Assembly: GCF_019443965.1 (NCBI RefSeq)
Contig: NZ_CP040814.1
Span: 2,356,001-2,420,000 of the forward strand
Origin: Salinibacterium sp. M195
GTDB lineage: Bacteria > Actinomycetota > Actinomycetes > Actinomycetales > Microbacteriaceae
Direction: 5' to 3'
Length of the DNA: 64,000 bases
Made by a program: the position numbers and the translations under genes. The notes beneath the pieces were generated by a model that did not search any database, had not been told where the DNA came from, and saw only the letters and a program-made list of their open reading frames with translations. This document shows positions 42,539 to 57,515 of the stretch, in pieces. How positions within the stretch are numbered: the first letter of the stretch is position 1; each line of letters opens with the position of its first letter.

Positions 42539-43687
42539 CTACGGGGTCAGTACTTGCGGAGTACCGATCTCACCGGCAGGCATCTCGGCTGCGATGCGAT
42601 TGGCCTCTTCGATAAGCGTCGCAACGATCTCAGATTCTGGCACCGTCTTGATGACTTCACCCTTCACAAAGATCTGACCCTTGCCATTACCACTGGCAAC
42701 ACCGAGGTCAGCTTCACGAGCCTCACCTGGCCCATTGACGACACAGCCCATCACGGCAACGCGCAGCGGGACGGTCATGCCTTCGAGACCCTCGGTGACA
42801 TCGTTAGCGAGCTTGTACACGTCGACCTGAGCGCGACCGCAGCTGGGGCACGAGACGATTTCGAGCTTGCGCTCACGAAGGTTTAGCGACTGCAGAATCT
42901 GCAACCCGACCTTCACTTCTTGGGCGGGGGGTGCTGACAGCGAAACACGAATCGTGTCACCGATGCCTTCAGAGAGCAGGATGCCGAAGGCAGTCGCGCT
43001 CTTGATGGTGCCCTGAAACTCCGGGCCAGCCTCGGTGACGCCCAAGTGCAGGGGCCAGTCACCGCGCTCAGCGAGCATGCGATACGCCTTCACCATCACG
43101 ATGGGGTCATTGTGCTTGACCGAGATCTTGAAGTCGTGGAAGTCGTGCTCTTCAAAGAGGCTTGCCTCCCACACCGCGCTCTCGACGAGCGCCTCAGCAG
43201 TAGCCTTGCCATATTTTTGCAGCAGGCTCGGCTCGAGCGAACCGGCGTTGATACCGATTCGCAGGCTCACCCCGGCATCCTTCGCGGCCTTGGCGATGTC
43301 GCCAACCTTGTCGTCAAACTTGCGAATGTTACCGGGGTTGACGCGCACGGCGCCCACTCCAGCATCAATCGCCGAGAAAACGTAGCGCGGCTGAAAGTGA
43401 ATATCGGCAATTACCGGAATCTGGCTCTTCTTCGCGATGATGTGCAGCACATCAGCGTCGTCCTGGTGGGGAACGGCAACGCGAACGATGTCGCAGCCCG
43501 ATGCCGTGAGTTCGGCAATCTGCTGAAGAGTTCCGTCGATGTTCGTCGTTTGCGTCGTGGTCATCGACTGAACGCTGACCTGCGAGTCACTGCCGACGCC
43601 TACCGAACCCACTTTGATTTGGCGGGTCTTGCGACGGGGAGCGAGGACTTCGGGAACTTTCGGCATTCCAAGATTGATTGCTGGCAC
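42539..43687 (-). CDS. ispG: 4-hydroxy-3-methylbut-2-enyl diphosphate synthase (flavodoxin/ferredoxin)
   Basis: The 382-residue product makes HMBPP in the non-mevalonate isoprenoid pathway. It has the TIM-barrel part ([18 protein letters not shown] near 40, VNPGNIR near 118) and the iron-sulfur part with Cys ligands in SCPSCGRA and [10 protein letters not shown] near 280-325. The GTG start is preceded by GGATGGGG. In related genomes it follows rseP; here the 12-kb catabolic island intervenes, ending 40 bases upstream on the same strand, so read-through from the catabolic operon into ispG is possible. Confidence 0.96.
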
Positions 43688-43727
43688 TACCCCATCCTAA
43701 AGCCGACTCCTGAACATCTGCGGAACG

Positions 43728-44786
43728 CTAGCGCGCGGCGAGATGAGCAGTGAGTGCCTCAACGAACTCAGCTGGGCGCTCGAGGTGGGCAGAATGGCCG
43801 CAGTTTTCCCACGCGAGTTCCGTATATTCGCCGCCATTGGCGACATAGCGGTCGAAAACGGCACGGGTCTGCTCGATCATCGGCTGCGGCGGAGCAACCT
43901 CAGCCCCGGGCCAGCCCGGAATCACTCCCAACTGGCCAAGGAAGTTCAGATCGAAACCAGAGGCATCCGACACGATCGCGTCGTTCAGACCGCGTACCCA
44001 CAGCACTCGTGGTTTCGTCGCTAGCTCAGTGATGCCACTGACGTTGAAATGGTCGGGAGTCATAGTGTTGAGTACTCCACGACCGCCAGGGCCAAAGCCG
44101 GGCCACGCCTCAACGGCGACCGAATCGCCAGGGTAGTTGCCTTCGCCGGTCGCGGTCGTGAGCATCGACTCCACCCACAGGTCTTCGAGTTCGGTGTGGG
44201 CTGCAGCATCCGCAACATAAGCCGTGCGGAAAACCAGGCGAGCGGATGCCGGAGAATCGTCGGTCGTGTTGCCCGCGTTCAGCTGGGCCACAAAATCGGG
44301 GTTCGCTCCCCCGCCGCCGGTGCCCGGGCACTCGGGAGCCAGAAGCTCGCCATTCGCGCCCTTCGTACCGCCAAAGCCGAAGGGCGAAACAGGTGACACG
44401 AACGAGACGGTATCGACACGGTCGGCGTGATCGAGCATGAACTGCATCACGACTCCGCCGCCCATGCTCCAGCCGACGAAGCTCGCCCGGTCGATGCCGA
44501 GGGCGTCGAGCACGGAAGCGATGTCGTCGGAGAAGTCACGAACGCCCCGCGTGGCATCCACTGGCAAGGTTTGCGTATCGCCGAAGCCGCGAAGGTCGAT
44601 AGCGAGCGCACGAACGCTGCTCTCCAGAGCAAGCATCGTCGGCTGCCAAAACAGCGACGACGACACATTTCCATGCACGAACACCACCGTGGAGGTTGCG
44701 TTGTCAGCTGGACGCTCGAACACCGAAGCGACAATGCGCGGTGTTGTGACGCTGTGCTGAACGATTCCGTCAAGAAGAGTTGCCAT
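43728..44786 (-). CDS. Alpha/beta hydrolase (island gene 12)
   Basis: The 352-residue product has the alpha/beta hydrolase fold: HGNVSSSLFW oxyanion loop near residue 39, nucleophile Ser in GWSMGGG near 107, an Asp in VRGLNDAIVSD near 265 and the His in ENCGHSAHLERPAEF near 333. A Gly-rich insertion PECPGTGGGGANPDF in the cap region is distinctive. Likely roles are ester or carbon-carbon bond hydrolysis of the compound imported by the island's transporter; the substrate is unknown. It is last in the operon, 66 bases after the CoA-transferase beta gene, a gap that holds an 18-base tandem duplication. Confidence 0.8.
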   Translation of the reverse strand: MATLLDGIVQHSVTTPRIVASVFERPADNATSTVVFVHGNVSSSLFWQPTMLALESSVRALAIDLRGFGDTQTLPVDATRGVRDFSDDIASVLDALGIDRASFVGWSMGGGVVMQFMLDHADRVDTVSFVSPVSPFGFGGTKGANGELLAPECPGTGGGGANPDFVAQLNAGNTTDDSPASARLVFRTAYVADAAAHTELEDLWVESMLTTATGEGNYPGDSVAVEAWPGFGPGGRGVLNTMTPDHFNVSGITELATKPRVLWVRGLNDAIVSDASGFDLNFLGQLGVIPGWPGAEVAPPQPMIEQTRAVFDRYVANGGEYTELAWENCGHSAHLERPAEFVEALTAHLAAR

Positions 44787-44800
44787 GGGGTGTCCTTAGT

Positions 44801-44836
44801 TGGTGAGACTGCGGGTGCTGGTGAGACTGCGGGTGT
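44801..44836. repeat. Two tandem 18-base units between island genes
   Basis: TGGTGAGACTGCGGGTGC (44801-44818) is repeated with one change (44819-44836) in the short gap between the CoA-transferase beta gene and the last hydrolase gene. Confidence 0.75.
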
Positions 44837-44852
44837 TCGGGGTGTTTGTTGG

Positions 44853-45497
44853 TTACGGCGCTGTGAGCTCGACGATGAGCTCGGGTTCGGTGGCGGCGCA
44901 AACAGTTGCTTCGTCAACGCCGGGAGCGAGTTCCCGAAGCACGAGGCCACGATCAGTTACGTCGATTACCGCGAGGTCGGTGATGATGCGGTGAACGACA
45001 CCGCGACCGGTGAGCGGCAAGGAGCATTCGTTCACAATCTTGGGGCTGCCATCTTTAGCGACATGCTCCATCAGCACGATGACGCGAGCTGCGCCGTGCA
45101 CGAGGTCCATGGCGCCGCCTGGGCCCTTGATCATCTTGCCGGGGATCATCCAGTTGGCGAGGTCACCGGCAACCGAAACTTGCATGGCGCCGAGGATGGC
45201 CGCGTCGATCTTGCCACCGCGGATCATGCCGAAACTCATGGCGGAGTCAAAGAAGGCCGTGCCGGGAAGCGTGGTGACGGTCTCTTTTCCGGCATTGATC
45301 AGGTCGGGGTCGACGTTCTCTTCTGTCGGGTACGGACCAACGCCCAGAATACCGTTCTCCGACTGCAACACCACCGTGCGCCCAGCGGGAACATAGTTCG
45401 GCACGAGGGTCGGGAGCCCGATACCGAGATTCACATAGGAACCATCAGCCAGTTCGAGAGCGGCACGCGCCGCCATTTCTTCACGAGTCAAAGCCAT
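44853..45497 (-). CDS. scoB: 3-oxoacid CoA-transferase subunit B
   Basis: The 214-residue product is the beta subunit of succinyl-CoA:3-oxoacid CoA-transferase. The catalytic Glu is in [14 protein letters not shown] near residue 48; [17 protein letters not shown] near 22 and [15 protein letters not shown] near 110 are typical. With the alpha subunit it moves CoA from succinyl-CoA to acetoacetate. Its start overlaps the alpha stop (TAATG). Related transferases act on 3-oxoadipate, but the neighbouring 3-hydroxybutyrate dehydrogenase favours acetoacetate. Confidence 0.9.
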
Positions 45498-46273
45498 TAC
45501 GCAACCACCTTCTGCACTGTGCGACGTTCGATCCGTTTCTCGACATCGGAGCCAACTTCAAGGATTCGCGTGACATACACGCCGGGCAGGTGAACGGCAT
45601 CCGACTCAATCTCGCCCGGCTCCACCAGCTCTTCGACCTGAGCGATGCAGATACGGCCAGCCATTGCAGCGAGCGGTGAGAAGTTGCGGGCTGACTTCGC
45701 AAAGACGAGGTTGCCGTGACGGTCACCTTTGAGAGCGTGAACGAGCGAGAAGTCGGTAGTGATTGATTCTTCAAGCACGAAATCTTTGGCGGTGCCGTTC
45801 ACATCGAACGAACGCACCTCTTTTTGTGGTGAGGCAATCGCCACGCCACCCGAACCGTCATAGCGGCGCGGTAAACCACCTTCGGCAACCTGAGTGCCCA
45901 CCCCCGTCTGAGTGAAGAACGCGGCAATGCCCGAACCGCCAGCACGTAGCTTCTCGGCAAGAGTGCCCTGCGGGGTCAACTCAACTTCAAGCTCGCCCGT
46001 GAGGAACTGGCGCTCAAACTCTTTGTTCTCGCCTACGTACGACGACGTCATCTTGCGGATGCGGCGGGCGGCCAGCAGAACGCCGAGCCCCCAATCATCC
46101 ACTCCACAGTTATTGCTGACGATACTGAGGTCGTCTGGCCCCAGCTCGAGCAGCGCTTGGATGAGCACCATCGGATTACCGCACAGGCCAAAGCCGCCAA
46201 CGGCCAGAGATGCCCCTCGGGGAATATCGGCAATTGCTTCTGCCGCCGACCCCACTGTCTTATCGATACTCAC
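45497..46273 (-). CDS. scoA: 3-oxoacid CoA-transferase subunit A
   Basis: The 258-residue product has the alpha-subunit motifs [20 protein letters not shown] near residue 26, [13 protein letters not shown] near 118 and FALAKSA-like sequence [18 protein letters not shown]. It joins with the B subunit to activate acetoacetate. Start GTG overlaps the stop of the upstream hydrolase gene (GTGA). Confidence 0.9.
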
Positions 46274-47178
46274 GCTCGGACCTCCCGCGGTTGATTCGCC
46301 AATAGTTCAGTCATGACGCCCGCAACACCATCTGCGCCACGCTGCGTCAAAGTAATTGTGTAGTGATTCACGTCGGCAGCCTCAGAGAACGTCACGTGGG
46401 GAAGTTCAGACCGCCATCGGTCACACTCTTGGGGAGAATACAGCGCGGGAACCTGATTGAGAAGACCCCGCGGTGCCCGGATGAAGTGCGCCGGCATCGT
46501 GAGGCCCTGAAGACCTGCGAGATACCCGGTGTCGCCGCTCAACTGCAGGGCATCGAAACTGACCGCCGCCAAGTTACTAGCAGGGTGCAGCTCGGGGGCA
46601 GTGCCCACGAGGTCGTAGTCGACGTAATCGCGAGTGGCTTCCGTGAAATCATCGGCAAATGCCGGGTGCACTCGCCAGAAGTCTTGGTAGCTTTCGCGAT
46701 TTGCAAACGTCATCGAGAGCCGATCAACAGCCGGCCCCAAGATCACCTGCGGCAAATCCTCCATTGAGACTCCTGCGGGCGCCGGAATCGGCAAACCGCC
46801 GTCAATCAAGAGCACGCTTGAGACACGCTCCGGGAACTGCGCCGCCAAGGTCGTCGCGACGAAAGCACCCATCGAATGCCCGACGACGAGCGCGGAATCA
46901 GTGCCGGTTGCGGCCAACAGCGCGTTCATGTCGTTCGCGTGCTGCGGCATCCCGAATGGAGCGGGAAGATCACGACTGGCGCCACGGCCCCGCAGGTCGG
47001 GAGCGATGACGCGATACTCGGGAAAGGCTTTGGCGACGAGAGGCCACGACATGTGCGACGCCGAAATGCCGTGGATCAGCAGGATAGTGCCGCGTGGTTC
47101 CGACTCGGGTTGCCAGACGGCAGCTGTGAGCTCGCCGCCGTCGACCTGGCACGTGATGGTGCTCTGTTGCGTGGTCAT
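46270..47178 (-). CDS. Alpha/beta hydrolase (island gene 9)
   Basis: From the ATG at 47178 the product has 302 residues. It shows HGISASHMSWPL near residue 38, the nucleophile elbow VVGHSMGAFVAT near 100, LLIDGGLP after it, and the catalytic His in DVNHYTI near 275. The cap segment is Phe/Asp/Tyr-rich (YQDFWRVHPAFADDFTEA). It resembles esterases/lipases of short to medium acyl chains. Being between 3-hydroxybutyrate dehydrogenase and CoA-transferase genes, hydrolysis of 3-hydroxybutyrate esters or oligomers is a reasonable but untested guess. The ATG overlaps the stop of the dehydrogenase gene. Confidence 0.82.
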   Translation of the reverse strand: MTTQQSTITCQVDGGELTAAVWQPESEPRGTILLIHGISASHMSWPLVAKAFPEYRVIAPDLRGRGASRDLPAPFGMPQHANDMNALLAATGTDSALVVGHSMGAFVATTLAAQFPERVSSVLLIDGGLPIPAPAGVSMEDLPQVILGPAVDRLSMTFANRESYQDFWRVHPAFADDFTEATRDYVDYDLVGTAPELHPASNLAAVSFDALQLSGDTGYLAGLQGLTMPAHFIRAPRGLLNQVPALYSPQECDRWRSELPHVTFSEAADVNHYTITLTQRGADGVAGVMTELLANQPREVRA

Positions 47179-47921
47179 CGTGCGCTCCAGCCGCCATCCA
47201 TTGAGTGTGAGGCACCGGTGACCATGCCCGCGGTGTCGCCGGCGAGCCACAGCACGAGATCCGCAACCTCACTCGGCTCGAGGAGACGTTTGATCGCGCT
47301 CTCGGTCAACATGACCTTCTCCACGACCTCAGACTCTGGGATGCCGTGCACCTTCGCCTGATCAGCGATCTGCTTTTCGACCAGCGGCGTGCGCACGTAG
47401 CCAGGGTTCACGCAATTGCTCGTGACACCATGGGCGCCGCCCTCCAGCGCCGTCACCTTAGAGAAGCCCTCGAGCCCGTGCTTCGCGGTGACATACGCCG
47501 ACTTATACGGAGAGGCGCGCAGGCCGTGCACCGAACTGATGTTGATGATGCGCCCGAACTCGCGCTCGTACATCTTCGGAAGAGCGGCCCGCACGAGCAA
47601 GAACGGCGCCTCGACCATGAGGGCAAGGATGCGACTGAACATCACCGGATCGAAGCTCTCGATGGGGCTCACGTGTTGGATGCCGGCGTTGTTCACGAGG
47701 ATGTCGATATCAAGTGAGAGATCGGCGAGCGCCGCAGTGTCGGTGAGATCAATCTGCCACGCTTCACCGCCAATGCGGTCGGCTTGAGCTTTCGCCGCAT
47801 CACCGTTGAGGTCAGCCACAATGACGTGGGCGCCGGCGGAGGCCAGAGCCTCGGTGCATGCGGCACCAATCCCGCTCGCTCCCCCGGTGACAAGAGCTCT
47901 GCGGCCCGTGAGATCGGTCAT
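47175..47921 (-). CDS. bdhA: D-3-hydroxybutyrate dehydrogenase
   Basis: From the ATG at 47921 the product has 248 residues, the normal SDR length. It has TGGASGIGAA near residue 11, NNAGIQHVSPIESF near 78, the catalytic Ser and Tyr-x3-Lys in INISSVHGLRASPYKSAYVTAKHGLEG, and NPGYVRTPLVEKQIADQA with the substrate Gln. The IQHV, SVHGL and VKRLxEP-like (AIKRLLEP) wording is specific for 3-hydroxybutyrate dehydrogenase. It oxidises D-3-hydroxybutyrate to acetoacetate with NAD. The longer frame to 48116 overlaps the regulator gene and was rejected; the ATG overlaps its TGA. Confidence 0.93.
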   Translation of the reverse strand: MTDLTGRRALVTGGASGIGAACTEALASAGAHVIVADLNGDAAKAQADRIGGEAWQIDLTDTAALADLSLDIDILVNNAGIQHVSPIESFDPVMFSRILALMVEAPFLLVRAALPKMYEREFGRIINISSVHGLRASPYKSAYVTAKHGLEGFSKVTALEGGAHGVTSNCVNPGYVRTPLVEKQIADQAKVHGIPESEVVEKVMLTESAIKRLLEPSEVADLVLWLAGDTAGMVTGASHSMDGGWSAR

Positions 47922-48574
47922 TTCTCGACTCCTTCGTTGCGCGGCTCTGGCACAGCCAGAGCACGGCGGATAAACGTAATCATCTGATCGAGAACTTCGT
48001 CGGGAACCCGGGAGGTGCCGCTCGCGGTCGGATCGGCATCGTGGCCAGCGTCGGCCGAATCGCCCCACAGAACCCAGCGCATCCCGATCATTTCGCCAAT
48101 ACCCATGAGAGCCCACGCTGCGACGGTCGGGTCAATGTCACCGATTTCGCCGAGCAACTGGGCTTCTTTGAGCCCTTCGATGTAGCCATCGACGATGCGC
48201 GAATAGTGCAGACGTAATGATTTGGGCGAGACGAATTCGGCCTCCCGCACAACGCGGTAGAGAGCCGGATGCTCGGCGGTGAATTCAAAGAACGCGCGAA
48301 AGCCGGCACGCTCTGACTCGATGCGAGTGGATGCTGCGCCAGAGGCTTCGCTCATGGCACGACGCACCCGCCGGTTCAGATCCTCCACGAGTTCTTCGAA
48401 GATCTCGAGCTTGCTGGAGAAGTAGAGATAGAACGTGCCCTGGCCTACGCCGGCTTCTTCTGTGATGCGCACAACGGAGGCGTCGGTGTAGCCGTAGCGG
48501 GCAAAGACTGTTTCGGCTGCCTCAATCAACTTCGTCTTGGTGCGGGTGCCGCGAGCGGTAAGTGGTGTGCTCAT
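47918..48574 (-). CDS. TetR-family regulator of the catabolic island
   Basis: From the ATG at 48574 the product has 218 residues. The N-terminal helix-turn-helix is RTKTKLIEAAETVFARYGYTDASVVRITEEAGVGQGTFYLYFSSKLEIFEEL in outline (residues 11-62), and the rest is a ligand-binding helical domain (TetR_C, about 80-200). It is embedded in the operon it probably represses, so autoregulation is likely, with release by a pathway intermediate such as an acyl-CoA. A matching inverted repeat lies at the operon promoter. Start and stop overlap both neighbours by ATGA. Confidence 0.88.
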   Translation of the reverse strand: MSTPLTARGTRTKTKLIEAAETVFARYGYTDASVVRITEEAGVGQGTFYLYFSSKLEIFEELVEDLNRRVRRAMSEASGAASTRIESERAGFRAFFEFTAEHPALYRVVREAEFVSPKSLRLHYSRIVDGYIEGLKEAQLLGEIGDIDPTVAAWALMGIGEMIGMRWVLWGDSADAGHDADPTASGTSRVPDEVLDQMITFIRRALAVPEPRNEGVEK

Positions 48575-50133
48575 GAACTGATCCGTCCTGGTTGTGCTGA
48601 CTGTTCTGTCCACTGCTCCAACAGCACCCGGCGACGTACTTTGTCGCTGGATGATCGTGGGATGTGTTCGACAAAAATGACACGCTTCGGCACTTTGAAC
48701 TTGGCGAGGCTGGTGCGCGCAAAGTTGAGTACGTCGGTTTCGTCGGTGGCAGCGCCCGAGCGCACCACCACCCACGCGATAGCCACTTCGCCCCACGTGG
48801 CATCCGGAACGCCGACGACAGCGACATCGGCGACAGCCGGATGCCCGAACAACACGCCCTCAATTTCGGCGGGAGCTACCGACTCTCCCCCAGTGATAAA
48901 GATGTCTTTGATGCGGTCGAGCACGCGGTAGTAGCCTTCGGCGTCACGGCTCACAAGGTCGCCGGTCGCGAGCCAGCCGTCTCGAAGTGCGAGTGCTGTT
49001 GCTTCCGGGGCGCGAAAATAGCCGCTAAAGACTCCGGGGCCGTGCACGAGCAACTCACCTTGGCCTGCTCCGTCGATGCGCTCACCGGTCACGGGGTCGG
49101 CAATGTCGACGTCCACGTGCGGGTAGGGCTTACCTGCCGAGCCAATACGCACGCGCGCTTCCTCATCGGGAAGACAGAGCACATTTGGCGCAGCTTCGGT
49201 GAGTCCGTAGCCCTGAGTGAGGGCAACTCCGCGGCTGTGCCACACCCGCAGCAGCGGTTCAGGCATGGGCGCTCCTCCCACAATCGCGTGGGCAAGGCTC
49301 GAGAGATCGCTGGACGCGAATCGCGGATGCTGCGACAGAATCAAGTAGTTGGCTGGCACGCCCATCATCGTGGTGATGCGACGATCGGCGATGAGCTGCA
49401 GCACTCGAGCCGGGTCGAAGGTGCGCTCGAGCACGACCGTGGCGCCCATCCACCACGCCAGCAGTGGCTGAATATTCCAACCACCGACGTGATACTGCGG
49501 CATGACGGCGAGCACCGTGTCGGCGCTCGTGATCTCGGCGGTACGGGAGAGGGACAGGTTGGTCCAGAAGCAATTCGCGTGGCTCAGGATGGCACCCTTG
49601 GCCTGATCGAGGGTGCCCGAGGTGAAGATGATCAGCAGTGCGTCATCATCACGCACTTCACGGTGCAGCGGCAATTCTGCCGCACTCCGCAGCGGAGCCA
49701 CCATGTCGCGTTCGATGCCATGGGTGCCCAATATTCCTCGAGCGATGGGAGCGACCAGCCGGTCAGTAGACAGCGTCGCGAGGGTCGAAAATTCGTCCTC
49801 GACAATCAGTACAGCGGGATCGGCTTGCTCGAGCTGCTGCGCGATCTCCCGGGGAGACAACCGCCACGACAGCGGAACGAGCACAAGTCCCGCCTTGGCA
49901 CAGGCAAAGAACACCACAACATGATCGGAGCTGTTTCCCGTAATCGTGGCAATGCGATCGCCAACACCGTAGCCGCCAGCAAGAAACGCGTGGGCAAGTG
50001 CAGTAGCTCGATCATCCAGCTGACGGTAGGTCAGCACGACACCACGGTCATCGACGGCCACACGATCTGGAGTGGCAATCGCGCGGTCAGCTGTCCAGCG
50101 CCCTAGCGTGTGCAGTCCATCAGACTGGATCAT
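48571..50133 (-). CDS. AMP-dependent acyl-CoA ligase-like protein
   Basis: The 520-residue product belongs to the ANL superfamily of fatty-acid-type CoA ligases. The phosphate loop reads FTSGTLDQAKGAILSH near residue 170, where most members have TSGTTGxPKG, so three loop residues differ. Other motifs are normal: QGYGLTEAAPNV near 305, WLATGDLVSRDAEGYYRVLDRIKD near 395, and the C-terminal Lys in IPRSSSDKVRRR. It may activate the free acid imported or released by the hydrolases. The altered loop could lower adenylation speed. It overlaps livM-type and TetR genes by ATGA on each side. Confidence 0.85.
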   Translation of the reverse strand: MIQSDGLHTLGRWTADRAIATPDRVAVDDRGVVLTYRQLDDRATALAHAFLAGGYGVGDRIATITGNSSDHVVVFFACAKAGLVLVPLSWRLSPREIAQQLEQADPAVLIVEDEFSTLATLSTDRLVAPIARGILGTHGIERDMVAPLRSAAELPLHREVRDDDALLIIFTSGTLDQAKGAILSHANCFWTNLSLSRTAEITSADTVLAVMPQYHVGGWNIQPLLAWWMGATVVLERTFDPARVLQLIADRRITTMMGVPANYLILSQHPRFASSDLSSLAHAIVGGAPMPEPLLRVWHSRGVALTQGYGLTEAAPNVLCLPDEEARVRIGSAGKPYPHVDVDIADPVTGERIDGAGQGELLVHGPGVFSGYFRAPEATALALRDGWLATGDLVSRDAEGYYRVLDRIKDIFITGGESVAPAEIEGVLFGHPAVADVAVVGVPDATWGEVAIAWVVVRSGAATDETDVLNFARTSLAKFKVPKRVIFVEHIPRSSSDKVRRRVLLEQWTEQSAQPGRISS

Positions 50134-51209
50134 TCCGCCTCCTCAAGCTGCTTGCGCGCGAGTGGTGTGGCGTTGGTGCCTGTTCCTAGGCGCCGCGCTG
50201 CACCAGCGATTCCTCCGGGAAGGAACAACACCACAAGGATAAACAGCGTGCCCAAGATAAAGAGCGGTTCTGAGAGAGGAATCCGCAAAATTGCGGGAAG
50301 ATCGGCAATCGCATCGGATCCCGCGAGCGCCGTCAGCCGCTGATCCAGCAACGTGTAGATGATCCCGCCGATGATCGCCCCCCAGCGAGATCCGACACCA
50401 CCGAGCACCACGATCACCAAAATCGTGAGGGTGAAGTCTGCGGATGTAGCACGCGGCGTTGTTCCGCTCTGCAACAGCAAATGCACCATTCCCACCAGCG
50501 ATGCCAGCACTGAGGCAATTACGAACGCCATCAGCTTCACGCCAAAGGGACGCAGCCCAAGCACGCGCACGCGCAACTCGTTCTCTCGAGTAGCCGTAAC
50601 CGCATGACCCGCACGCGAGTTCTCGAACCAGGCTACGACCACGAACACAACAACCAACAGTCCGAGCGCGAGCCAATAAAGATTGCGCGTATTGATCACG
50701 CCAATAAAGAAGTCGGGAATGTGCTCAGTATCGAGACGCAGCCCCTCCTCACCGCCGGTCAGAGCCGGATTGCGACGCACCAGCACGTTGCCAGCCTGAG
50801 CGAACGCCAGCGTCACCATCGCGAACGAGATTCCCGTGACCCTCAGACTCAAGGAACCGAGCAAATAAGCTGCGGCGATGACCACTGCGAGAGTGAGCCC
50901 CAATGCCGGGATCAGCGTGAGCTCGGTCTGCTGCAACACAATGCCCAGTCCGTAAGCACCGAGCGCGAAGTACAACGCGTGACCGAACGACAGCATCCCG
51001 GCGGTACCAAACAGCAGGTGATAGCTCAACGCCAACGACGCGAAGAGCAAGGCGAGTGCCAGCAACTGCAAAGTGCCTGGAGTGTACGTAGCGCCGGGCA
51101 ATACGCCAGGGATCGAGATATTCAGCAGCGGGAGAACGGCAGCAAACGCCACCAAGACGCCGCCAACAATCCACCACGTGCGCTGGCTGAGGTTCGTGAG
51201 CGACTTCAT
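50130..51209 (-). CDS. Branched-chain-type ABC transporter permease (LivM-like)
   Basis: The 359-residue product has about ten membrane helices and the LivM-type loop VTRENELRVRVLGLRPFGVKLMAFVIASVLASLVG (ATRENELRVRVLG near residue 230) that contacts the ATPases. It is the second permease of a hydrophobic amino acid uptake (HAAT) type importer. Its partners in order are the binding protein, two ATPases and the LivH-like permease, all in the same operon. Confidence 0.88.
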   Translation of the reverse strand: MKSLTNLSQRTWWIVGGVLVAFAAVLPLLNISIPGVLPGATYTPGTLQLLALALLFASLALSYHLLFGTAGMLSFGHALYFALGAYGLGIVLQQTELTLIPALGLTLAVVIAAAYLLGSLSLRVTGISFAMVTLAFAQAGNVLVRRNPALTGGEEGLRLDTEHIPDFFIGVINTRNLYWLALGLLVVVFVVVAWFENSRAGHAVTATRENELRVRVLGLRPFGVKLMAFVIASVLASLVGMVHLLLQSGTTPRATSADFTLTILVIVVLGGVGSRWGAIIGGIIYTLLDQRLTALAGSDAIADLPAILRIPLSEPLFILGTLFILVVLFLPGGIAGAARRLGTGTNATPLARKQLEEAE

Positions 51210-52081
51210 GCTTTCTTCCCCATAATTCCGGTCGGACGAACCAAGAGCACCACGGCGAGCAACAGCACGACCATGAGGTCACCCGTTCCGCCCCAGAAGT
51301 AGTTCGCGAACTGCTGAAGGATCGCAACGGCTACCGATGCGATCGCCGCACCGGCGAGAGAGCCCAGGCCACCGATCACCGTAACGATGAACGCGAAGAT
51401 CAGCAGGGAGCCCCCGAGTTGTGGCGAGACGTAACCGAAGTAGTGAGACGCAAGCACGCCACCCAGCCCAGCGGCAGCGCCACCAATGGCGAACACGACG
51501 GTAAAGGCTTTGCGCACATCGATACCGAGGGCGGTAACCATCGAACGGTTCTCCACCCCCGCCCGAATGACGAGCCCGAAGCGCGTGTACCGCAAGAAGG
51601 CGACGATGCCGATGAGCACAAGCGCTGCGGCACCAATTAGCAGGAAGCGGTCATTAGGAACGCGAGCTCCCAAAATTTCGGTGGTCTGAGACAACCACGG
51701 CGGTGCGGTGACATAGATTGCGTCGGTGCCCCAGATGCCATCGAACAGAGCCACCGTTGCGAGCGCCAAACCGACAGTCACCAGCACTTGCTCGATATGC
51801 CGGTTATAGAGGCGCCGGATGAGGAAAAACTCCGTGGCAGCGGCTGCAAGCGCACCGACGACCATACCGAGAAGTAAAGACGCAATCAGAGTGCCCCAGC
51901 TTTCGCCGCCCATCCGCCTCGCCAACTCCCAACCGGCAAAAGCGCCGAGAGTCAGAAAGGAACCATGGGCAAAGTTCAGCACGCCCATGAGGCCATAAAT
52001 CAGCGACAGACCGGATGCGACCAAGAAGTAGAGAGCACCAAGCCCCAGCCCCGTGATCAGCAACAAAACTATGGTGCTCAT
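51206..52081 (-). CDS. Branched-chain-type ABC transporter permease (LivH-like)
   Basis: The 291-residue product has eight membrane helices and LivH signatures: GLGALYFLVASGLSLIYGLMGVLNFAHGSFLTLGAF near the start, IRAGVENRSMVTALGIDVRKAFTVVFAIGGAAAGLGGVLA near 180 as the coupling loop. It overlaps its neighbours by ATGA on both sides. Confidence 0.9.
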   Translation of the reverse strand: MSTIVLLLITGLGLGALYFLVASGLSLIYGLMGVLNFAHGSFLTLGAFAGWELARRMGGESWGTLIASLLLGMVVGALAAAATEFFLIRRLYNRHIEQVLVTVGLALATVALFDGIWGTDAIYVTAPPWLSQTTEILGARVPNDRFLLIGAAALVLIGIVAFLRYTRFGLVIRAGVENRSMVTALGIDVRKAFTVVFAIGGAAAGLGGVLASHYFGYVSPQLGGSLLIFAFIVTVIGGLGSLAGAAIASVAVAILQQFANYFWGGTGDLMVVLLLAVVLLVRPTGIMGKKA

Positions 52082-52803
52082 GCGACCCCCAGCAATTCTT
52101 TCGTCAGAGCTTCATTGCCCAAGAGTTCTTCGGCACCACCGTCATAAACAACGCGACCACCCTCGAGCACAATCACCTTCTGGGCGAGCATCCGCACAAC
52201 CTGCAAGTTCTGTTCCACCAACAGCACCGGCACAGTTGCGGCGGCGCGCTCGAGTGCTCGCGCGACATCCATCACGATGAGCGGCGCGAGGCCCTTGGTC
52301 GGCTCGTCAACGAGCAACACCCGGTTCTCGTTGACGAGAGCGCGAGCCAGCGACACCATCTGCTGCTGGCCTCCCGAGAGAGTGCCAGCCAACTGGCCGG
52401 AACGCTCAGTGAGATCAGGAAAAAGTTCTTCGATAAGCTGACGGTTCGGTGAAGAGTTGCGCTCCGCCAGGCGCAGATTTTCTGCGACCGTCAGCGAGGC
52501 GAACACCTCACGGTCTTCAGGGACATAACCGACACCGCGCTGCACAATGCGGTGCGTAGGTTCGCGGTCAACGCGCTCCCCCGCAATCGTCACCTCACCC
52601 GAGCGTTCGATGAGCCCCAGGATCGCCCGCAGCGTGCTCGTCTTTCCGACGCCATTGCGGCCCAAGAGAGCCGTCACCCCTACGGGAAGCATCTCGAAGC
52701 TCACCGATTCAACAACCTGCTGGCCGTCAATGCTGGCGTTGAGATCAGAAACCGTCAGGATCGAATCCGTCACCGTCGGCGTAACACCGGTCGACTCAGT
52801 CAT
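52078..52803 (-). CDS. Branched-chain-type ABC transporter ATPase (LivF-like)
   Basis: The 241-residue product has Walker A GRNGVGKTS near residue 48, the Q-loop region GYVPEDREVFASLTVAENL, the signature LSGGQQQMVSLARALV near 143 and Walker B VLLVDEPTKGL. The GxVPEDRxVFxxLTVxENL wording is LivF-specific. It powers the island's importer together with the LivG-like ATPase. Confidence 0.92.
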   Translation of the reverse strand: MTESTGVTPTVTDSILTVSDLNASIDGQQVVESVSFEMLPVGVTALLGRNGVGKTSTLRAILGLIERSGEVTIAGERVDREPTHRIVQRGVGYVPEDREVFASLTVAENLRLAERNSSPNRQLIEELFPDLTERSGQLAGTLSGGQQQMVSLARALVNENRVLLVDEPTKGLAPLIVMDVARALERAAATVPVLLVEQNLQVVRMLAQKVIVLEGGRVVYDGGAEELLGNEALTKELLGVA

Positions 52804-53555
52804 AGTGGAGCTCCCAAATAAGCCTTCTGCACCGCTTCGTCTGCCATAACAGCGTCAGGGGTGTCGCAGGCGAGTAACTGGCCATGGTGCATAACCGCAA
52901 CGCGGTCTACCAGGCCGAGGACGACATCCATATGATGTTCGACCATGAGAACCGTGCGCCCCGACTGATGAACCTGGCGAATCACTTCGGTGAGCCCGGC
53001 AACATCGCCAGAGGCGACGCCGGCCATCGGCTCGTCGAGAAGGATGACGCTGGGGTCAGTGGCCAGAAGCATCGCGATTTCTAGTTTGCGTTTGTCACCG
53101 TGGGAAAGAACCCCGGCCACCGTCTCGCTGTGATGGCTGAGACCCACCTCGTCGAGTCGGGCTCGAGCGATTGTTGTTGCTTTGTCGTTCGACCGCGGAA
53201 AGCGCAGTACTGATGTTGCGCCGCCCAATTTCACTTGCGCAGCGAGCCGAACATTCTCTCGCGCGCTCAGGGCCGGGAAGAGACTGGAAGTTTGAAAAGT
53301 TCTGCCGAGCCCAGCCCGGGCCCGCGCATCAATGGTCTGATTCGTGACATCACGCCCCTCCAAAGTGACGGCTCCGGTGGTAGGAGTCATCACCCCAGAG
53401 ATGAGATTGAAAAGCGTGGTTTTTCCGGCCCCATTCGGGCCGATCACGCCGAGCATCTCACCCTGGCCGATCGAGAGTGACACGTCATCGATGATGACGG
53501 CACCCCCGATCGTGAGTGCAAGGTGCTCGACCGTGAGCACGGGCTGGTTCGACAT
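52800..53555 (-). CDS. Branched-chain-type ABC transporter ATPase (LivG-like)
   Basis: The 251-residue product has Walker A GPNGAGKTTLFNLISG near residue 38, the LivG-type GLGRTFQTSSLFPALSARENV, signature LSHGDKRKLEIAMLLATDP near 150 and Walker B VILLDEPMAGV. Start ATG at 53555; it ends in an ATGA overlap with the LivF-like gene. Confidence 0.92.
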   Translation of the reverse strand: MSNQPVLTVEHLALTIGGAVIIDDVSLSIGQGEMLGVIGPNGAGKTTLFNLISGVMTPTTGAVTLEGRDVTNQTIDARARAGLGRTFQTSSLFPALSARENVRLAAQVKLGGATSVLRFPRSNDKATTIARARLDEVGLSHHSETVAGVLSHGDKRKLEIAMLLATDPSVILLDEPMAGVASGDVAGLTEVIRQVHQSGRTVLMVEHHMDVVLGLVDRVAVMHHGQLLACDTPDAVMADEAVQKAYLGAPL

Positions 53556-53569
53556 CGTTAGTGAGTTGC

Positions 53570-54760
53570 TTACTCTGCGATGGGCGGAGTGACGGCGTCA
53601 GCATCGACGGCCTCGATCAGCTCAGGAATCCACGAGTCGCCATCAGCGACAAGCGAGACCTGGAACATCGGCTGGATCATGGCGTGGTCTTCGGCGCGAA
53701 CCGTGATCTCGCCCTTGACCGAATCGAAGGTCCAGCCTTCGAGCGCCGCAATCATGGCATCAACATCGTCGCCACCTTCACGTACTGCCTGAACAACCAT
53801 CTGAGCCGCAACGAAACCGTCAGGAGAGAACAGGTCAGCCTGCTTGCCTTCTGCTTCGAGGTAGCTCACCATCGCCGTGTTGGCGTCGTTGTCTGTCGCA
53901 CCACCGAAGTAGTGGTTGAGGAAGCTGATCTTGTCACTCGCGGGGCCATAAGCACCGTAGGTCGAGACGTCGCCAAGACCGGTAGCTACGGGAACGCTGT
54001 CGAATACGCCCTGTTGGCTGAGTGCCTGCCACATTGCGCCGGAGGTTGCTCCAGCCCACGCAACGAACACGAGGTCTGGTTGCGTGTCAACGATCTGCTG
54101 AGCGAATGGGGTGAACTCTGTTGCATCTTCCGGAACGAGCAAGCTCGTTACTTCTGCGCCCTGCCCACCAAGAACGGCGGTTGCAGCGGCAACGTTGCCC
54201 TGGCCGAATGCCGTGTCCTGACCGAAGACGAGAACAGACTTACCGGCAGGATCGCCAATGAAAGTTCCGGCAGTCGCGACGTCTTGGTAGCTCTGGCGAC
54301 CAGAACGGAAGGTGTAGTCGTTCACTCCGGTGATGCCGTCTGCCGCTGCGGGGCCGGAGATGTACAGAATCTTGTTCTGTTCGGCCTGTTCGGCAATCGC
54401 TAGGGCGATTCCGGAGGAGACGGTACCGATGATGATCTTCTGACCTTGACCGATCACGTCTTTCGCTGCGGTAACCGCCTTATCGGCGTCTCCCGCATCA
54501 TCCGTGATCTCAATGTTGAGCTCGCGGCCATCGACGGCGCCTGTGCCGTCCGTGGCGTAGTCGAGACCGGCGTCGAAGCCCGCGAGGTAGGCCTCACCGT
54601 ACGCCGCGAGCGGGCCGGTCTGAGAAGTAATGATTGAGATATCAACGGGGGCGAGTTCATCTCCCCCGGATCCGCTATCAACGCTGGGGGCACAGCCTGC
54701 CAGTGTGAGTGCAACCGTCGCAATTAACGCCGGAGCGAGGTACTTTTTATTGACCCGCAT
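53570..54760 (-). CDS. Lipoprotein substrate-binding component of the island importer
   Basis: The 396-residue product has a lipoprotein signal peptide with the lipobox LAGC and Cys23 as lipidated residue, then a type I periplasmic-binding-protein fold (Peripla_BP_6/LivJ-like): ISIITSQTGPLAAYGEAYLAGFDAGLDY, NIEITDDAGDADKAV, IIGTVSSGIALAIAEQAEQNKI and FVAWAGATSGAMWQAL. Such proteins bind amino acids, but also aromatic or short acids, amides and urea; the ligand is unknown here. It is the first gene of the operon, with AGGAAAGG before its ATG and a strong promoter upstream. Confidence 0.9.
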   Translation of the reverse strand: MRVNKKYLAPALIATVALTLAGCAPSVDSGSGGDELAPVDISIITSQTGPLAAYGEAYLAGFDAGLDYATDGTGAVDGRELNIEITDDAGDADKAVTAAKDVIGQGQKIIIGTVSSGIALAIAEQAEQNKILYISGPAAADGITGVNDYTFRSGRQSYQDVATAGTFIGDPAGKSVLVFGQDTAFGQGNVAAATAVLGGQGAEVTSLLVPEDATEFTPFAQQIVDTQPDLVFVAWAGATSGAMWQALSQQGVFDSVPVATGLGDVSTYGAYGPASDKISFLNHYFGGATDNDANTAMVSYLEAEGKQADLFSPDGFVAAQMVVQAVREGGDDVDAMIAALEGWTFDSVKGEITVRAEDHAMIQPMFQVSLVADGDSWIPELIEAVDADAVTPPIAE

Positions 54761-54798
54761 GATGGGACCTTTCCTGCTGCCTTAGGAGGATTGTGATC

Positions 54799-54823
54799 TG
54801 AACCTGAGACCCGGTTCAGGTTT
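54799..54823. promoter_or_regulatory. Probable TetR operator between divergent island units
   Basis: AACCTGA (54801-54807) and TCAGGTT (54816-54822) form a perfect inverted repeat with an 8-base spacer; TGAACC (54799-54804) and GGTTCA (54813-54818) form a second, overlapping one. It lies just downstream of the operon's -10 element, at the expected start of transcription, and upstream of the thiolase gene. Confidence 0.6.
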
Positions 54824-54828
54824 CATGT

Positions 54829-54857
54829 AGCCTATGGTTGCTCAACCTCGCTGTCAA
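54829..54857 (-). promoter_or_regulatory. Promoter of the 12-gene catabolic operon
   Basis: On the minus strand a perfect -35 TTGACA (54852-54857) and -10 TAGGCT (54829-54834) are 17 bases apart. Transcription should start near 54822, inside the inverted repeat, leaving a leader of about 60 bases. Confidence 0.75.
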
Positions 54858-54886
54858 CACGGCGCACCAACAAAGGAGTTTGCACA

Positions 54887-56083
54887 GTGGCCAACACCCC
54901 TGCACCCAACGATGTAGTAATCCTTTCCGCAACACGCACCCCACAAGGGAAACTGCGCGGACAACTCGGTTCCCTCACGGCCGTTGAGCTCGGCGCAGTC
55001 GCACTCCGCGCCGCCGTCGAGCGTTCAGGTGTGAACGTCGACGACATCGACCAGGTCATCTTCGGTCAAGTAATTCAGGCGGGCGCCGGTCAGAACCCTG
55101 CCAGGCAAACGTCCATCGCTGCCGGCCTCGCGTGGAAAACTCCCACCGTCACCGTGAACAAAGTCTGCCTGTCAGGACTTGCCGCAATTGTGGATGCTGC
55201 GCGCCTCATCCGACTCGGCGAAGCCAATGTTGTTGCTGCCGGTGGTCAAGAATCCATGACCAACGCACCGCACGTGCTGCCAGGGTCACGCATGGGATGG
55301 GCTTACGGCACTGTCTCTGCGCTCGACTCTGCCGCTCACGATGCGCTCACTGACGCGTTTGACGCCGAATCAATGGGCGCAAGCACCGAACGTCACAATG
55401 GTCGCCTGAACATCGGTCGCACCGAGCAAGACGAAATCGCCGCTGCGTCGCACCAGCGTGCAGCTGCCGCCATTGAGGCCGGCGTTTTCGTCGACGAAAT
55501 CGCTCCCGTCACCATCCCCCAGCGCAAGGGGGATGATTTGGTGCTCGATACGGATGAGGGCGTGCGCGCCAACACCACCGTCGAGACCCTCGCTGGCCTT
55601 CGTCCCGCATTCGATCCTGCCGGAACCATCACTGCCGGAAACTCGTCGCCGCTGAGCGACGGCGCCTCGGCCGTTATCCTGGCCAGCCGCGCTTGGGCAG
55701 AAGAACACGGTCTCACCTGGCTCGCCGTTCTCGACCGCTCCGGCCACGTCGCCGGCCCTGATAACTCGTTGCACTCGCAACCCGCTCGCGCTATTGCGGC
55801 AGCACTGGAGAACGCTGGGTGGAGCGCAAGCGACCTCGACTTTGCCGAGATCAACGAAGCCTTCGCGGCCGTAAGCCTCCGCTCAACGGCGGAACTTGGG
55901 CTCAGCCACGACATCGTGAACATTCACGGTGGAGCGATCGCAATCGGGCACCCCGTTGGGGCATCCGGAGCGCGACTAGTCGTGCACGCCGCCCACGAGC
56001 TCGCACGCCGCGGCTCAGGCCGCGCTGCCGTAGCCCTGTGCGGTGGCGGCGGGCAGGGCGACGCGCTTCTCCTGACGCGCTAG
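54887..56083 (+). CDS. Acetyl-CoA C-acetyltransferase (thiolase)
   Basis: The 398-residue product is a full-length degradative thiolase. The nucleophilic Cys is in TVNKVCLSGLAAI near residue 90, the second set of motifs is NEAFAAVSL near 324, GGAIAIGHPVGASGAR with the catalytic His near 354, and the C-terminal CGGGGQGDAL Cys near 384. It should cleave acetoacetyl-CoA to two acetyl-CoA and so finish the pathway encoded by the divergent operon. GTG start, with AAGGAG upstream. It is convergent with rseP after a 14-base gap. Confidence 0.92.
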   Translation: MANTPAPNDVVILSATRTPQGKLRGQLGSLTAVELGAVALRAAVERSGVNVDDIDQVIFGQVIQAGAGQNPARQTSIAAGLAWKTPTVTVNKVCLSGLAAIVDAARLIRLGEANVVAAGGQESMTNAPHVLPGSRMGWAYGTVSALDSAAHDALTDAFDAESMGASTERHNGRLNIGRTEQDEIAAASHQRAAAAIEAGVFVDEIAPVTIPQRKGDDLVLDTDEGVRANTTVETLAGLRPAFDPAGTITAGNSSPLSDGASAVILASRAWAEEHGLTWLAVLDRSGHVAGPDNSLHSQPARAIAAALENAGWSASDLDFAEINEAFAAVSLRSTAELGLSHDIVNIHGGAIAIGHPVGASGARLVVHAAHELARRGSGRAAVALCGGGGQGDALLLTR

Positions 56084-56097
56084 CGAATCGGCTGTGG

Positions 56098-57426
56098 TTA
56101 GAAGAACGAGATCGGTTTGACGATGTCGGCGTAGACCAAAAGCAACGTCATCGCGCCGAGAAGAACCACGACAACAAGCGTCAACGGGATTACCTTGGCG
56201 GTATCCACCGGGCCTGGATCGGGCTTACCGAATAGCTTCGCAAAGAAACGCCGAACGCCTTCATACAGCGCGCCGAGAACATGACCTCCGTCGAGAGGCA
56301 TGAGCGGCACGAGGTTAAAGACGAAAAGCGCAACGTTGAGCGACCCGATAAGCCCGATCAAGGTAGCGACTCGATCAGCAACCGGTGCAGAATCTAAGCT
56401 CGCAATCTCGCCAGCAATACGGCCAACGCCAACCACGCCGATGGGGCCGTTGGGATCACGCTCACCAGGACCGAACGCCGCAGTGGCAACATCGACCATG
56501 CGCTGGGGAAGATGCAGAATCACATTGCCAACCGCAACAACGTTGTCACCAACAGCAGGCAGAACCGCAGTCACCGGCTGTCGAACATTCTCCACTGCCG
56601 AGCCAATTCCCAAGAAACCGTACTCTTCAGTCAGAGGTTCGCCAGCAGCATCCTCGGCAATTTGGCCGCGATCGTCGAAAACATAGCGTTCGGTGAGCAA
56701 GGGCTCGGTCAGCAGCGTAACTTCGGCACCATCTCGCTCTACGACGACGGTTAATTCTGCGCCCGCAGCCGCGCGAATGTACTCGGTCGCTTCAGCCCAG
56801 GTCTCTACAGGCTCGCCATCCATCGACACCAATCGATCGCCAGGAAGCATCCCCGCGGCAAAGCCTGGCGCTTCAGGATCAGTGCTCTCGCAGGTTTGAC
56901 GATCGGCCGTTGCTGGCAGGACACACTCCGAGACACTACTAATCGTCGTCGTGGTCTGAGCAGACCCGAAACCCATCAGGAGAACCGCGAACATCACGAT
57001 GGCAATAAGAAGGTTCATCACCGGACCACCGAGCATGATGATGACGCGCTTGAAGACCGGCAAATTATAGAAAGCCCGCGACTCGTCGACATCAACCAAC
57101 GTGTCTGCACTTGCGGTGCGGGCATCCTGAACCAAAGTCTGGAATATGCCTGTCGTGGAGCTGCGGCTTCCCGCATTCACTTTGCTCGGAGGGTACATTC
57201 CCGCCATCGCAATGTAGCCGCCCAAGGGGATCGCCTTGAACCCATACTCCGTCTCGCCGCGCTTACGCGAGAAAATCGTCGGTCCAAATCCGATCATGTA
57301 CTGGCTTACGCGCACACCAAAGAGCTTCGCCGGCAATAGATGGCCTATCTCGTGCAGGCCTATTGAGACAGCAAGCCCGACGACAACAACCAGGATGCCG
57401 AGAATATACAAGAGCACGTTTTCCAC
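56098..57426 (-). CDS. rseP: Site-2 intramembrane metalloprotease RseP/Rip1
   Basis: The 442-residue product has four membrane helices, the zinc motif HEIGHL (His25, Glu26, His29), one PDZ domain (about 190-260, with PGFAAGMLPGDRLVSMDGEPV) and the C-terminal FNLVPLMPLDGGH active-site motif. In mycobacteria the homologue Rip1 cuts anti-sigma factors. It lies downstream of dxr as in most actinobacteria. The GTG start is 6 bases after TATTCT, without Shine-Dalgarno. Confidence 0.93.
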   Translation of the reverse strand: MENVLLYILGILVVVVGLAVSIGLHEIGHLLPAKLFGVRVSQYMIGFGPTIFSRKRGETEYGFKAIPLGGYIAMAGMYPPSKVNAGSRSSTTGIFQTLVQDARTASADTLVDVDESRAFYNLPVFKRVIIMLGGPVMNLLIAIVMFAVLLMGFGSAQTTTTISSVSECVLPATADRQTCESTDPEAPGFAAGMLPGDRLVSMDGEPVETWAEATEYIRAAAGAELTVVVERDGAEVTLLTEPLLTERYVFDDRGQIAEDAAGEPLTEEYGFLGIGSAVENVRQPVTAVLPAVGDNVVAVGNVILHLPQRMVDVATAAFGPGERDPNGPIGVVGVGRIAGEIASLDSAPVADRVATLIGLIGSLNVALFVFNLVPLMPLDGGHVLGALYEGVRRFFAKLFGKPDPGPVDTAKVIPLTLVVVVLLGAMTLLLVYADIVKPISFF

Positions 57427-57438
57427 TCGCTAAGAATA
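57427..57438 (-). promoter_or_regulatory. -10 element TATTCT, leaderless GTG start of rseP
   Basis: TATTCT (57433-57438) ends 6 bases before the GTG at 57426. Confidence 0.5.
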
Positions 57439-57515
57439 GCCACGCGCACCGACGCCGACCTGTGCCAGCGCTGTGGAAGGCGAATAACCACCCCAGATTG
57501 GGGTAGTTCTGACGC

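Follow-up and report, generated by a model that had tools for sequence, protein, structure and literature searches.

A putative TetR regulon joins a HAAT-type ABC importer to 3-hydroxybutyrate catabolism and to secreted poly(3-hydroxybutyrate) depolymerases in actinobacteria

Among extracellular enzymes that degrade denatured poly(3-hydroxybutyrate) (dPHB), PhaZSa of Streptomyces ascomycinicus has signal, catalytic and C-terminal binding domains (PMC3741128). Among ABC importers of the HAAT family, substrate-binding proteins (SBPs) of Rhodopseudomonas palustris bind aromatic, fatty and dicarboxylic acids (main text of PMC3223731). The system described here would differ from the latter in its ligand, because that main text gives no 3-hydroxybutyrate (3HB) or polyhydroxyalkanoate (PHA) oligomer as ligand, does not contain 'hydroxybut' and leaves RPA4397 unnamed. 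We analyzed a stretch of 64,000 nucleotides from Salinibacterium sp. M195 (contig NZ_CP040814.1, positions 2,356,001 to 2,420,000), here called the window, in which genes for a HAAT-type importer, a TetR-type regulator, two hydrolases and 3HB catabolism lie together between ispG and rseP. We consider it probable that this module belongs to a regulon, controlled by TetR, that serves growth on poly(3-hydroxybutyrate) (PHB) made by other organisms.

The core of the module resembles known 3HB and ketone-body catabolism in that 3-hydroxybutyrate dehydrogenase (HBDH), succinyl-CoA:3-ketoacid CoA-transferase (SCOT) and thiolase all score above the cut-offs of their models and find proteins of the same kind in the PDB. 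The hbdh product, read from a start 14 codons upstream, reaches 312 bits with the HBDH model TIGR01963 (cut-off 307), and its closest PDB sequences are HBDHs, e.g., 3v2h, 4trr and 1wmb. Both transferase subunits pass (CtfA with 226 bits against a cut-off of 129 for TIGR02429, CtfB with 322 against 244 for TIGR02428), CtfB being closest to SCOT subunit B (3cdk), and the thiolase (423 bits with TIGR01930, cut-off 241) is closest to the acetyl-CoA acetyltransferase 4o99. What sets the module apart from ketone-body catabolism as known is that operon and operator tie these enzymes to an ABC importer, to two hydrolases and a ligase and, in part of the relatives, to a secreted depolymerase. The preliminary description had proposed the catabolism of a 3HB-yielding compound, which is supported by these enzymes and by an operator that the module shares with a secreted PHB depolymerase.

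The hydrolase Hyd1 finds its closest PDB sequence in the poly(3-hydroxybutyrate) depolymerase 8ynv, which we take to be an intracellular depolymerase of native short-chain-length PHA (nPHAscl) of the Bacillus thuringiensis type. It shares a GWSMGG box with this kind of enzyme, its residues S107, D269 and H331 are invariant in 15 aligned sequences, and its best NCBIfam model is that for intracellular depolymerases of short-chain-length PHA (scl-PHA), i_nPHAscl (NF050089). It differs from these enzymes in staying below the equivalog cut-off and in occurring in a family in which the PHB synthase model was matched in none of 80 genomes. We regard Hyd1 as a candidate cytoplasmic hydrolase of 3HB oligomers or PHB-type esters. 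Hyd2 is a general alpha/beta hydrolase (Pfam Abhydrolase_1). Neither Hyd1 nor Hyd2 shows an obvious signal peptide when inspected by eye.

The element that connects these genes with others is a palindrome, ACCTGA-N8-TCAGGT, which sits between sbp and thl (54802-54821) and has no second perfect copy in the genome of the window. A scan of the genome collection yielded at least 540 stretches encoding an sbp relative, and 80 named loci were read, from Salinibacterium, Agromyces, Cryobacterium, Microbacterium, Arthrobacter, Nocardioides, Promicromonospora, Georgenia, Demequina and others. At zero, up to one and up to two mismatches, the operator is found upstream of sbp in 51, 72 and 76 of the 80 loci, compared with 0, 0.04 and 0.66 sites per 80 expected from mononucleotide shuffles. 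All 72 loci with a detected tetR gene carry it. In the four loci without operator (L096, L102, L120 and L141) no tetR was detected, though its position is covered; the other four loci without detected tetR are short contigs, and in these the operator is present. As L096 and L120 both belong to Agromyces, the losses of operator and tetR are not all independent. The four operator-less loci lack the ligase gene along with tetR. A strict coupling of the two genes was rejected, since L065 keeps tetR without the ligase and has a perfect site.

The search was extended to whole genomes, 60 of which were chosen from a sample of Microbacteriaceae (33 with sbp and 27 others, mostly one per genus). A perfect operator occurs in 25 of the 33 sbp-bearing and in seven of the other genomes, while the reversed pattern gave a single site. 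Sites with up to three mismatches are not much more frequent in the window's genome than in the control (71 vs 50). Beyond the operon, the sbp-bearing genomes contain six perfect sites. Three of these lie upstream of a gene for a secreted depolymerase (G197, G242 and G283), one lies 33-66 bases before a separate thiolase gene in G223 (L220), where thl is not next to sbp, and one belongs to G006, where a second, different HAAT operon (L218, 7441-12188) with an SBP of about 30% identity begins about 80 bases behind the site. The extra site in G001, where two genes end, seems to be a chance occurrence. In G026 (L219), a genome without sbp, the operator precedes a transporter-less lig-tetR-hbdh-hyd2-hyd1 cluster, and in G084 (L065) the site lies between tetR and thl; sites also occur in G037, G074, G137, G028 and G033. 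An extended consensus, sought in 149 genomes of another class, turned up at three places, in every case upstream of an sbp homologue of 46-53% identity; the seed genome G409 accounts for one of them. A palindromic operator is thus common to the operon and to other pathway genes, as in a TetR regulon. The co-occurrence of tetR and operator would fit binding of TetR to this site, where it probably acts as a repressor.

The module also has its operator in common with a secreted PHB depolymerase, pointing to PHB as the source compound. In all four genomes that encode the longer, C-terminally extended enzyme, the operator stands some 85-150 bases ahead of the depolymerase gene, which is not linked to the operon; the match is perfect in G197, G242 and G283 and has one mismatch in G082. 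All four enzymes pass the scl-PHA depolymerase model. For depolymerase-like genes without the extension (G036, G037, G052, G029 and G142), no site was found in the 3.3-4.0 kb fetched; the enzymes of G036 and G037 nevertheless pass the model. In six of the 80 loci, a secreted-looking esterase of the depolymerase type is encoded beside the operon itself, downstream of hyd2 in two Nocardioides and divergently from sbp in three Promicromonospora and one Cellulosimicrobium. The Nocardioides pair passes the model for extracellular type-1 scl-PHA depolymerases (NF050058; 181 and 177 bits, cut-off 150), the other four are 62-69% identical to this pair over the aligned parts and have relatives annotated under the depolymerase name, and all six contain a GLSSGG box. 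The C-terminal extension presumably resembles, in its motif, the binding domain of known PHB depolymerases. A stricter pattern matches it in five of the ten operator-linked or operon-adjacent enzymes (L148 and L214-L217), in the other five (L147, L149, L153, L157 and L162) it was read by eye, and a Pfam scan of two of the enzymes gave no match within it. In their G-L-S-S-G box, C-terminal extension and, by eye, signal-peptide-like N-terminus the linked enzymes of the relatives are similar to PhaZSa as described in PMC3741128. Unlike in PhaZSa-type systems, the operator is shared with an import operon in the relatives, and no such enzyme was found in the genome of the window.

When model score is taken alone, the association between depolymerase and sbp is weak: the cut-off of NF050058 is exceeded in five of 33 sbp-bearing and one of 47 other genomes (p = 0.077; 80 genomes, mostly one per genus). 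A search with the Salinibacterium enzyme in the full sample of 299 Microbacteriaceae genomes (85 genera) at E <= 1e-60 returned matches in four of 33 sbp-bearing genomes and none of 266 others (p = 1.3e-4); the four span two genera and hence are not independent, and the association emerged after the C-terminally extended enzymes had been separated. This ratio holds for the 299 genomes only; homologues with 52-61% identity exist in Microbacteriaceae outside the sample, e.g., in Cryobacterium suzukii, Agrococcus and Microbacterium, not all of which were checked for the module. A search for type-2 depolymerases was uninformative, as the controls gave no match. The depolymerase contig of L214 (G283:C142) equals in length (40,986) a contig whose protein (P0126) a source labels Burkholderiaceae; this could reflect an error of labeling or of binning.

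The importer is encoded in one operon by genes for an SBP of the Peripla_BP_6 type, LivH- and LivM-type permeases and LivG- and LivF-type ATPases, i.e., a complete HAAT ABC importer. Regulon and gene context point to fragments of PHB as its ligand. We thus propose the following sequence of events. Outside the cell, PHB would be cut to 3HB and short 3HB oligomers by a secreted depolymerase, which some relatives produce themselves. Since no depolymerase match was obtained in the window's genome, this strain would depend on PHB digested by its neighbors and may live on the leftovers of others. The transporter SBP-LivGFHM would import the fragments, most likely oligomers, and Hyd2 and Hyd1 would cut these esters to 3HB in the cytoplasm. 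HBDH would then yield acetoacetate, CtfAB would form acetoacetyl-CoA at the expense of succinyl-CoA, and the thiolase would release two acetyl-CoA. TetR would bind the palindrome between sbp and thl, probably repressing transcription in both directions until a metabolite of the pathway, perhaps a CoA thioester, releases it. Candidate roles of the ligase are activation of another PHA-derived hydroxyacid or of acetoacetate, or formation of the inducer.

Several observations weigh against this proposal. The depolymerase is present in only four of the 33 sbp-bearing family genomes, from two genera, and the window's own genome has neither a type-1 depolymerase (E <= 1e-25) nor a match to the Salinibacterium enzyme (E <= 1e-60). 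Hyd1 misses the cut-off of NF050089 by a wide span, with 101 vs 300 bits. In Cryobacterium, hbdh and ctfAB are missing next to the operon in nine of ten loci, and the distant loci L080 and L082, with a tetR relative of 55-56% identity, have no site at up to two mismatches. The remaining points would fit the degradation of an imported hydroxycinnamate-type aromatic acid by a feruloyl esterase, a feruloyl-CoA synthetase and hydrolases of ring-cleavage products: among PDB entries, the ligase comes closest to 8weu and to 8wev, a feruloyl-CoA synthetase by name, the nearest ligand-bound structural relatives of the SBP take 4-hydroxybenzoate, vanillate and p-coumarate, and the PDB relatives of the secreted enzyme include feruloyl and acetylxylan esterases. 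Such a pathway is nonetheless very unlikely, as the dehydrogenase is an HBDH and the module in the window contains no dioxygenase, hydratase/aldolase or aldehyde dehydrogenase. Additional groups of open reading frames found in three or more relatives occupy the far ends of the stretches retrieved. Moreover, the four operator-bearing and the two Nocardioides enzymes pass the scl-PHA depolymerase model and are C-terminally extended, and it is the five depolymerase-like genes without operator that lack the extension, even if two of their products (G036, G037) pass the model. By fold and family, the transporter could also be an ordinary importer of branched-chain amino acids that came to lie beside ketone-body genes by chance. 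We hold this to be highly improbable. The SBP reaches just 63 bits with the binding-protein model for these amino acids (PRK15404, cut-off 477), and transporter and 3HB genes form one operon with one operator in many genera. In Leu/Ile/Val-binding proteins, the amino group of the substrate is bound by an acidic residue (E226 of LIVBP); profile alignment (to 4n0q) would place T260 of the SBP at this position, a residue invariant in 24 aligned sequences.

Two further explanations concern PHB itself. The similarity of Hyd1 to intracellular PHB depolymerases would agree with mobilization of the cell's own stored PHB. The PHB synthase model PhaC_N (PF07167) found no match in the 80 family genomes introduced above, the window's included, with a positive Caulobacter control, and hence the hydrolases of the module probably do not serve stored PHB. 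An importer would also be needless for this purpose, and we give this explanation next to no weight. PhaC_N may miss other synthase classes, a further point on the debit side of our proposal, and the absence of PHB storage is therefore not proven. If PHB is indeed not stored, the hydrolases of the operon would act on imported esters, favoring oligomers over the monomer as imported substrate. This bears on an importer that takes only the 3HB monomer, perhaps also acetoacetate, with hydrolases that act elsewhere or are carried-along esterases. Most characterized scl-PHA depolymerases release monomer, some also dimers and trimers, as stated in a 2025 review (PMC11893044), and carriers of the short-chain-acid or MHS-like kind beside or near the module of some relatives indicate that acid monomers may matter. 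On the other hand, such carriers next to a HAAT set would appear redundant for a single monomer, and the presence of two ester hydrolases in the operon, with hyd2 in at least 74 of 80 loci, in a family without PhaC_N matches, points to imported esters. Import of the monomer alone is thus unlikely in our view, and uptake of PHB fragments as oligomers is what we favor.

As to the locus itself, the interval between ispG and rseP (43728-56083) comprises twelve genes on the minus strand and one divergent thiolase gene (Table 1). All thirteen are open reading frames that match the families for which they are named (starts refined), so that the two divergent units of the preliminary description stand. 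From rseP toward ispG, the minus-strand order is sbp, livG, livF, livH, livM, lig, tetR, hbdh, hyd2, ctfA, ctfB and hyd1. The eleven genes from sbp to ctfB are as tightly joined as had been noted, with a single base shared at one junction, four bases at eight and a gap of 14 bases at the remaining one, while hyd1 follows 66 bases beyond ctfB as the twelfth gene.

Table 1 Features of the module and its flanks in the window (positions are those of the window).
Feature	Position	Strand	Assignment and remarks
ispG	42539-43687		flank of block
hyd1, alpha/beta hydrolase, GWSMGG nucleophile box	43728..44786	-	Pfam Abhydrolase; i_nPHAscl 101 bits; PDB 8ynv
ctfB, 3-oxoacid CoA-transferase subunit B	44853..45497	-	TIGR02428; PDB 3cdk
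ctfA, 3-oxoacid CoA-transferase subunit A	45497..46273	-	TIGR02429
hyd2, second alpha/beta hydrolase, GHSMGA box	46270..47178	-	Pfam Abhydrolase_1
hbdh, 3-hydroxybutyrate dehydrogenase (SDR)	47175..47921	-	TIGR01963; PDB HBDHs
tetR, presumed module regulator	47918..48574	-	PF00440; tracks operator across loci
lig, AMP-forming acyl-CoA ligase	48571..50133	-	PF00501/PF13193; PDB 8weu/8wev
livM-type permease	50130..51209	-	NCBIfam UrtC/LivM models, scores below cut-offs
livH-type permease	51206..52081	-	NCBIfam UrtB/LivH models, scores below cut-offs
livF-type ATPase	52078..52803	-	NCBIfam UrtE/LivF models, scores below cut-offs
livG-type ATPase	52800..53555	-	NCBIfam UrtD/LivG models, scores below cut-offs
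sbp, HAAT-type binding protein	53570..54760	-	lipobox LAGC by eye
operator ACCTGAGACCCGGTTCAGGT	54802..54821	.	divergent sbp-thl promoter region
thl, acetyl-CoA C-acyltransferase (thiolase), divergent	54887..56083	+	TIGR01930; PDB 4o99
rseP	56098-57426		flank of block
dxr	57516-58598		flank of block, with rseP

The source genome (3.04 Mb, one contig) belongs to the Salinibacterium/Rhodoglobus group, and the SBP is 92-97% identical to proteins carrying these names, its counterpart in Salinibacterium sp. PAMC 21357 reaching 99% identity. The block had been viewed as an island that splits the ispG-rseP-dxr locus, and a comparison of the interval in related Microbacteriaceae had been suggested. 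In this comparison, sbp (called at E <= 1e-60) is present in 33 of 299 genomes and 18 of 85 genera, often at this site, and the interval proved variable in general. Five of six sampled genomes of the same genus have sbp; in the sixth, G282, rseP and ispG are about 20 bases apart. Distances were worked out for 103 of the 299 genomes, those among the matches listed that have both genes on one contig. Without sbp (n = 87), rseP and ispG are separated by at most 350 bases in 56, by 0.9-5 kb in 24 and by more than 8 kb in seven genomes; with sbp (n = 16), the distance is at least 9.9 kb in 15, and in G083 it is 48 bases, the module residing elsewhere. What holds of the island is its place at a variable site; a private island is contradicted by a gene order that recurs across genera. 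A unique recent acquisition was likewise rejected in view of the distribution of sbp and of the G+C content (61.1% in the block against 59.5% on its left and 57.9% on its right; no other 12.4-kb stretch of the window is higher, but the margin is small). ARAGORN detected no tRNA anywhere in the window, there is no mobility gene among the thirteen module genes, and a comparison with Rfam returned nothing at gathering score for the window and nothing at E <= 0.1 for 43600-57600. In five genomes of one genus (G002, G086, G149, G200 and G245), 9-14 kb of other content lies between rseP and ispG, with no sbp at E <= 1e-60, so that the interval resembles a hot spot for insertions in general.

The module itself is well conserved among actinobacteria of soil and marine habitats. 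All 32 fetched sbp-bearing relatives (L032-L063) have sbp and the neighboring module genes in the same order, except at a contig end (L043). In 15 of them the module is bracketed by ispG and rseP inside the fetched stretch, in seven one flank is seen and in nine neither; in L051 both are near the module, yet not on either side of it. Variants occur: L066 and L067 hold only ctfAB and thl at the site, L065 (G084) keeps tetR and has neither transporter nor ligase, L040 is without tetR and ligase, and L053 and L054 lack hbdh and ctfAB. In the 80 named loci, the order sbp-livGFHM-lig-tetR-hbdh-hyd2 is conserved. The genes hyd2, lig, tetR and hbdh were detected in at least 74, 73, 72 and 63 loci, and hyd1, ctfA, thl and rseP in at least 52, 45, 41 and 40, respectively, hyd2 thus more often than hyd1; these counts are lower bounds, because the stretches read reach no further than about 21 kb and some of the contigs stop earlier. 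No extra gene common to the modules of relatives was recognized; the edge groups of open reading frames mentioned above, each in at least three loci, are unannotated, and many of the frames listed are likely spurious.

Individual relatives carry further genes nearby. An MHS-like metabolite/H+ symporter is encoded beside or near the module in L147, L157, L162, L046, L120 and L141 (for L147 with 377 bits in TIGR00883, cut-off 443; for the other five by similarity) and is possibly a carrier of the monomer, and in Georgenia (L159, 18880-20271) a short-chain fatty acid transporter (PF02667) is inserted between hyd2 and ctfA. A ketoacyl-synthase-III-like protein is encoded near tetR, ligase and hydrolase genes in the distant modules L079 (12503-13606; passing PRK06840 with 413 vs 315 bits) and L082 (11773-12972; judged by eye) and may replace the thiolase step. 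In L123 (1177-5100) and L077 (11081-13842), the HBDH gene adjoins one for a large, GAF-domain-containing, by eye PucR-like protein, perhaps an alternative regulator of 3HB use; L123 also has a hyd1 relative.

The enzymes and the type of transporter are known as such; what would be new is their union into a regulon for PHB fragments with a HAAT importer. We know of no earlier dedicated ABC importer of 3HB oligomers. A literature search, with most subscription papers beyond its reach, came across neither this operon nor an importer of PHB oligomers, and neither 'uptake' nor 'transporter' occurs in the main text of the 2025 review of PHA biodegradation (PMC11893044). Somewhat short of an even bet, in our estimate, is the wider proposition that the HAAT module is a dedicated ABC importer of 3HB oligomers within a TetR regulon present in more than one actinobacterial class, that strains without depolymerase are specialized scavengers and that the ligase may make a CoA thioester sensed by TetR. 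Uptake of PHB digestion products is rarely addressed, and the regulon offers named, testable genes for that step. A single DNA motif provides a way to spot PHB users and scavengers in genomes, and the locus is an example of a HAAT importer tied via a regulon to an aliphatic hydroxyacid source, not to amino acids. If our proposal is true, the HAAT module would be the uptake step in bacterial PHB use and the first dedicated ABC importer of 3HB oligomers known to us.

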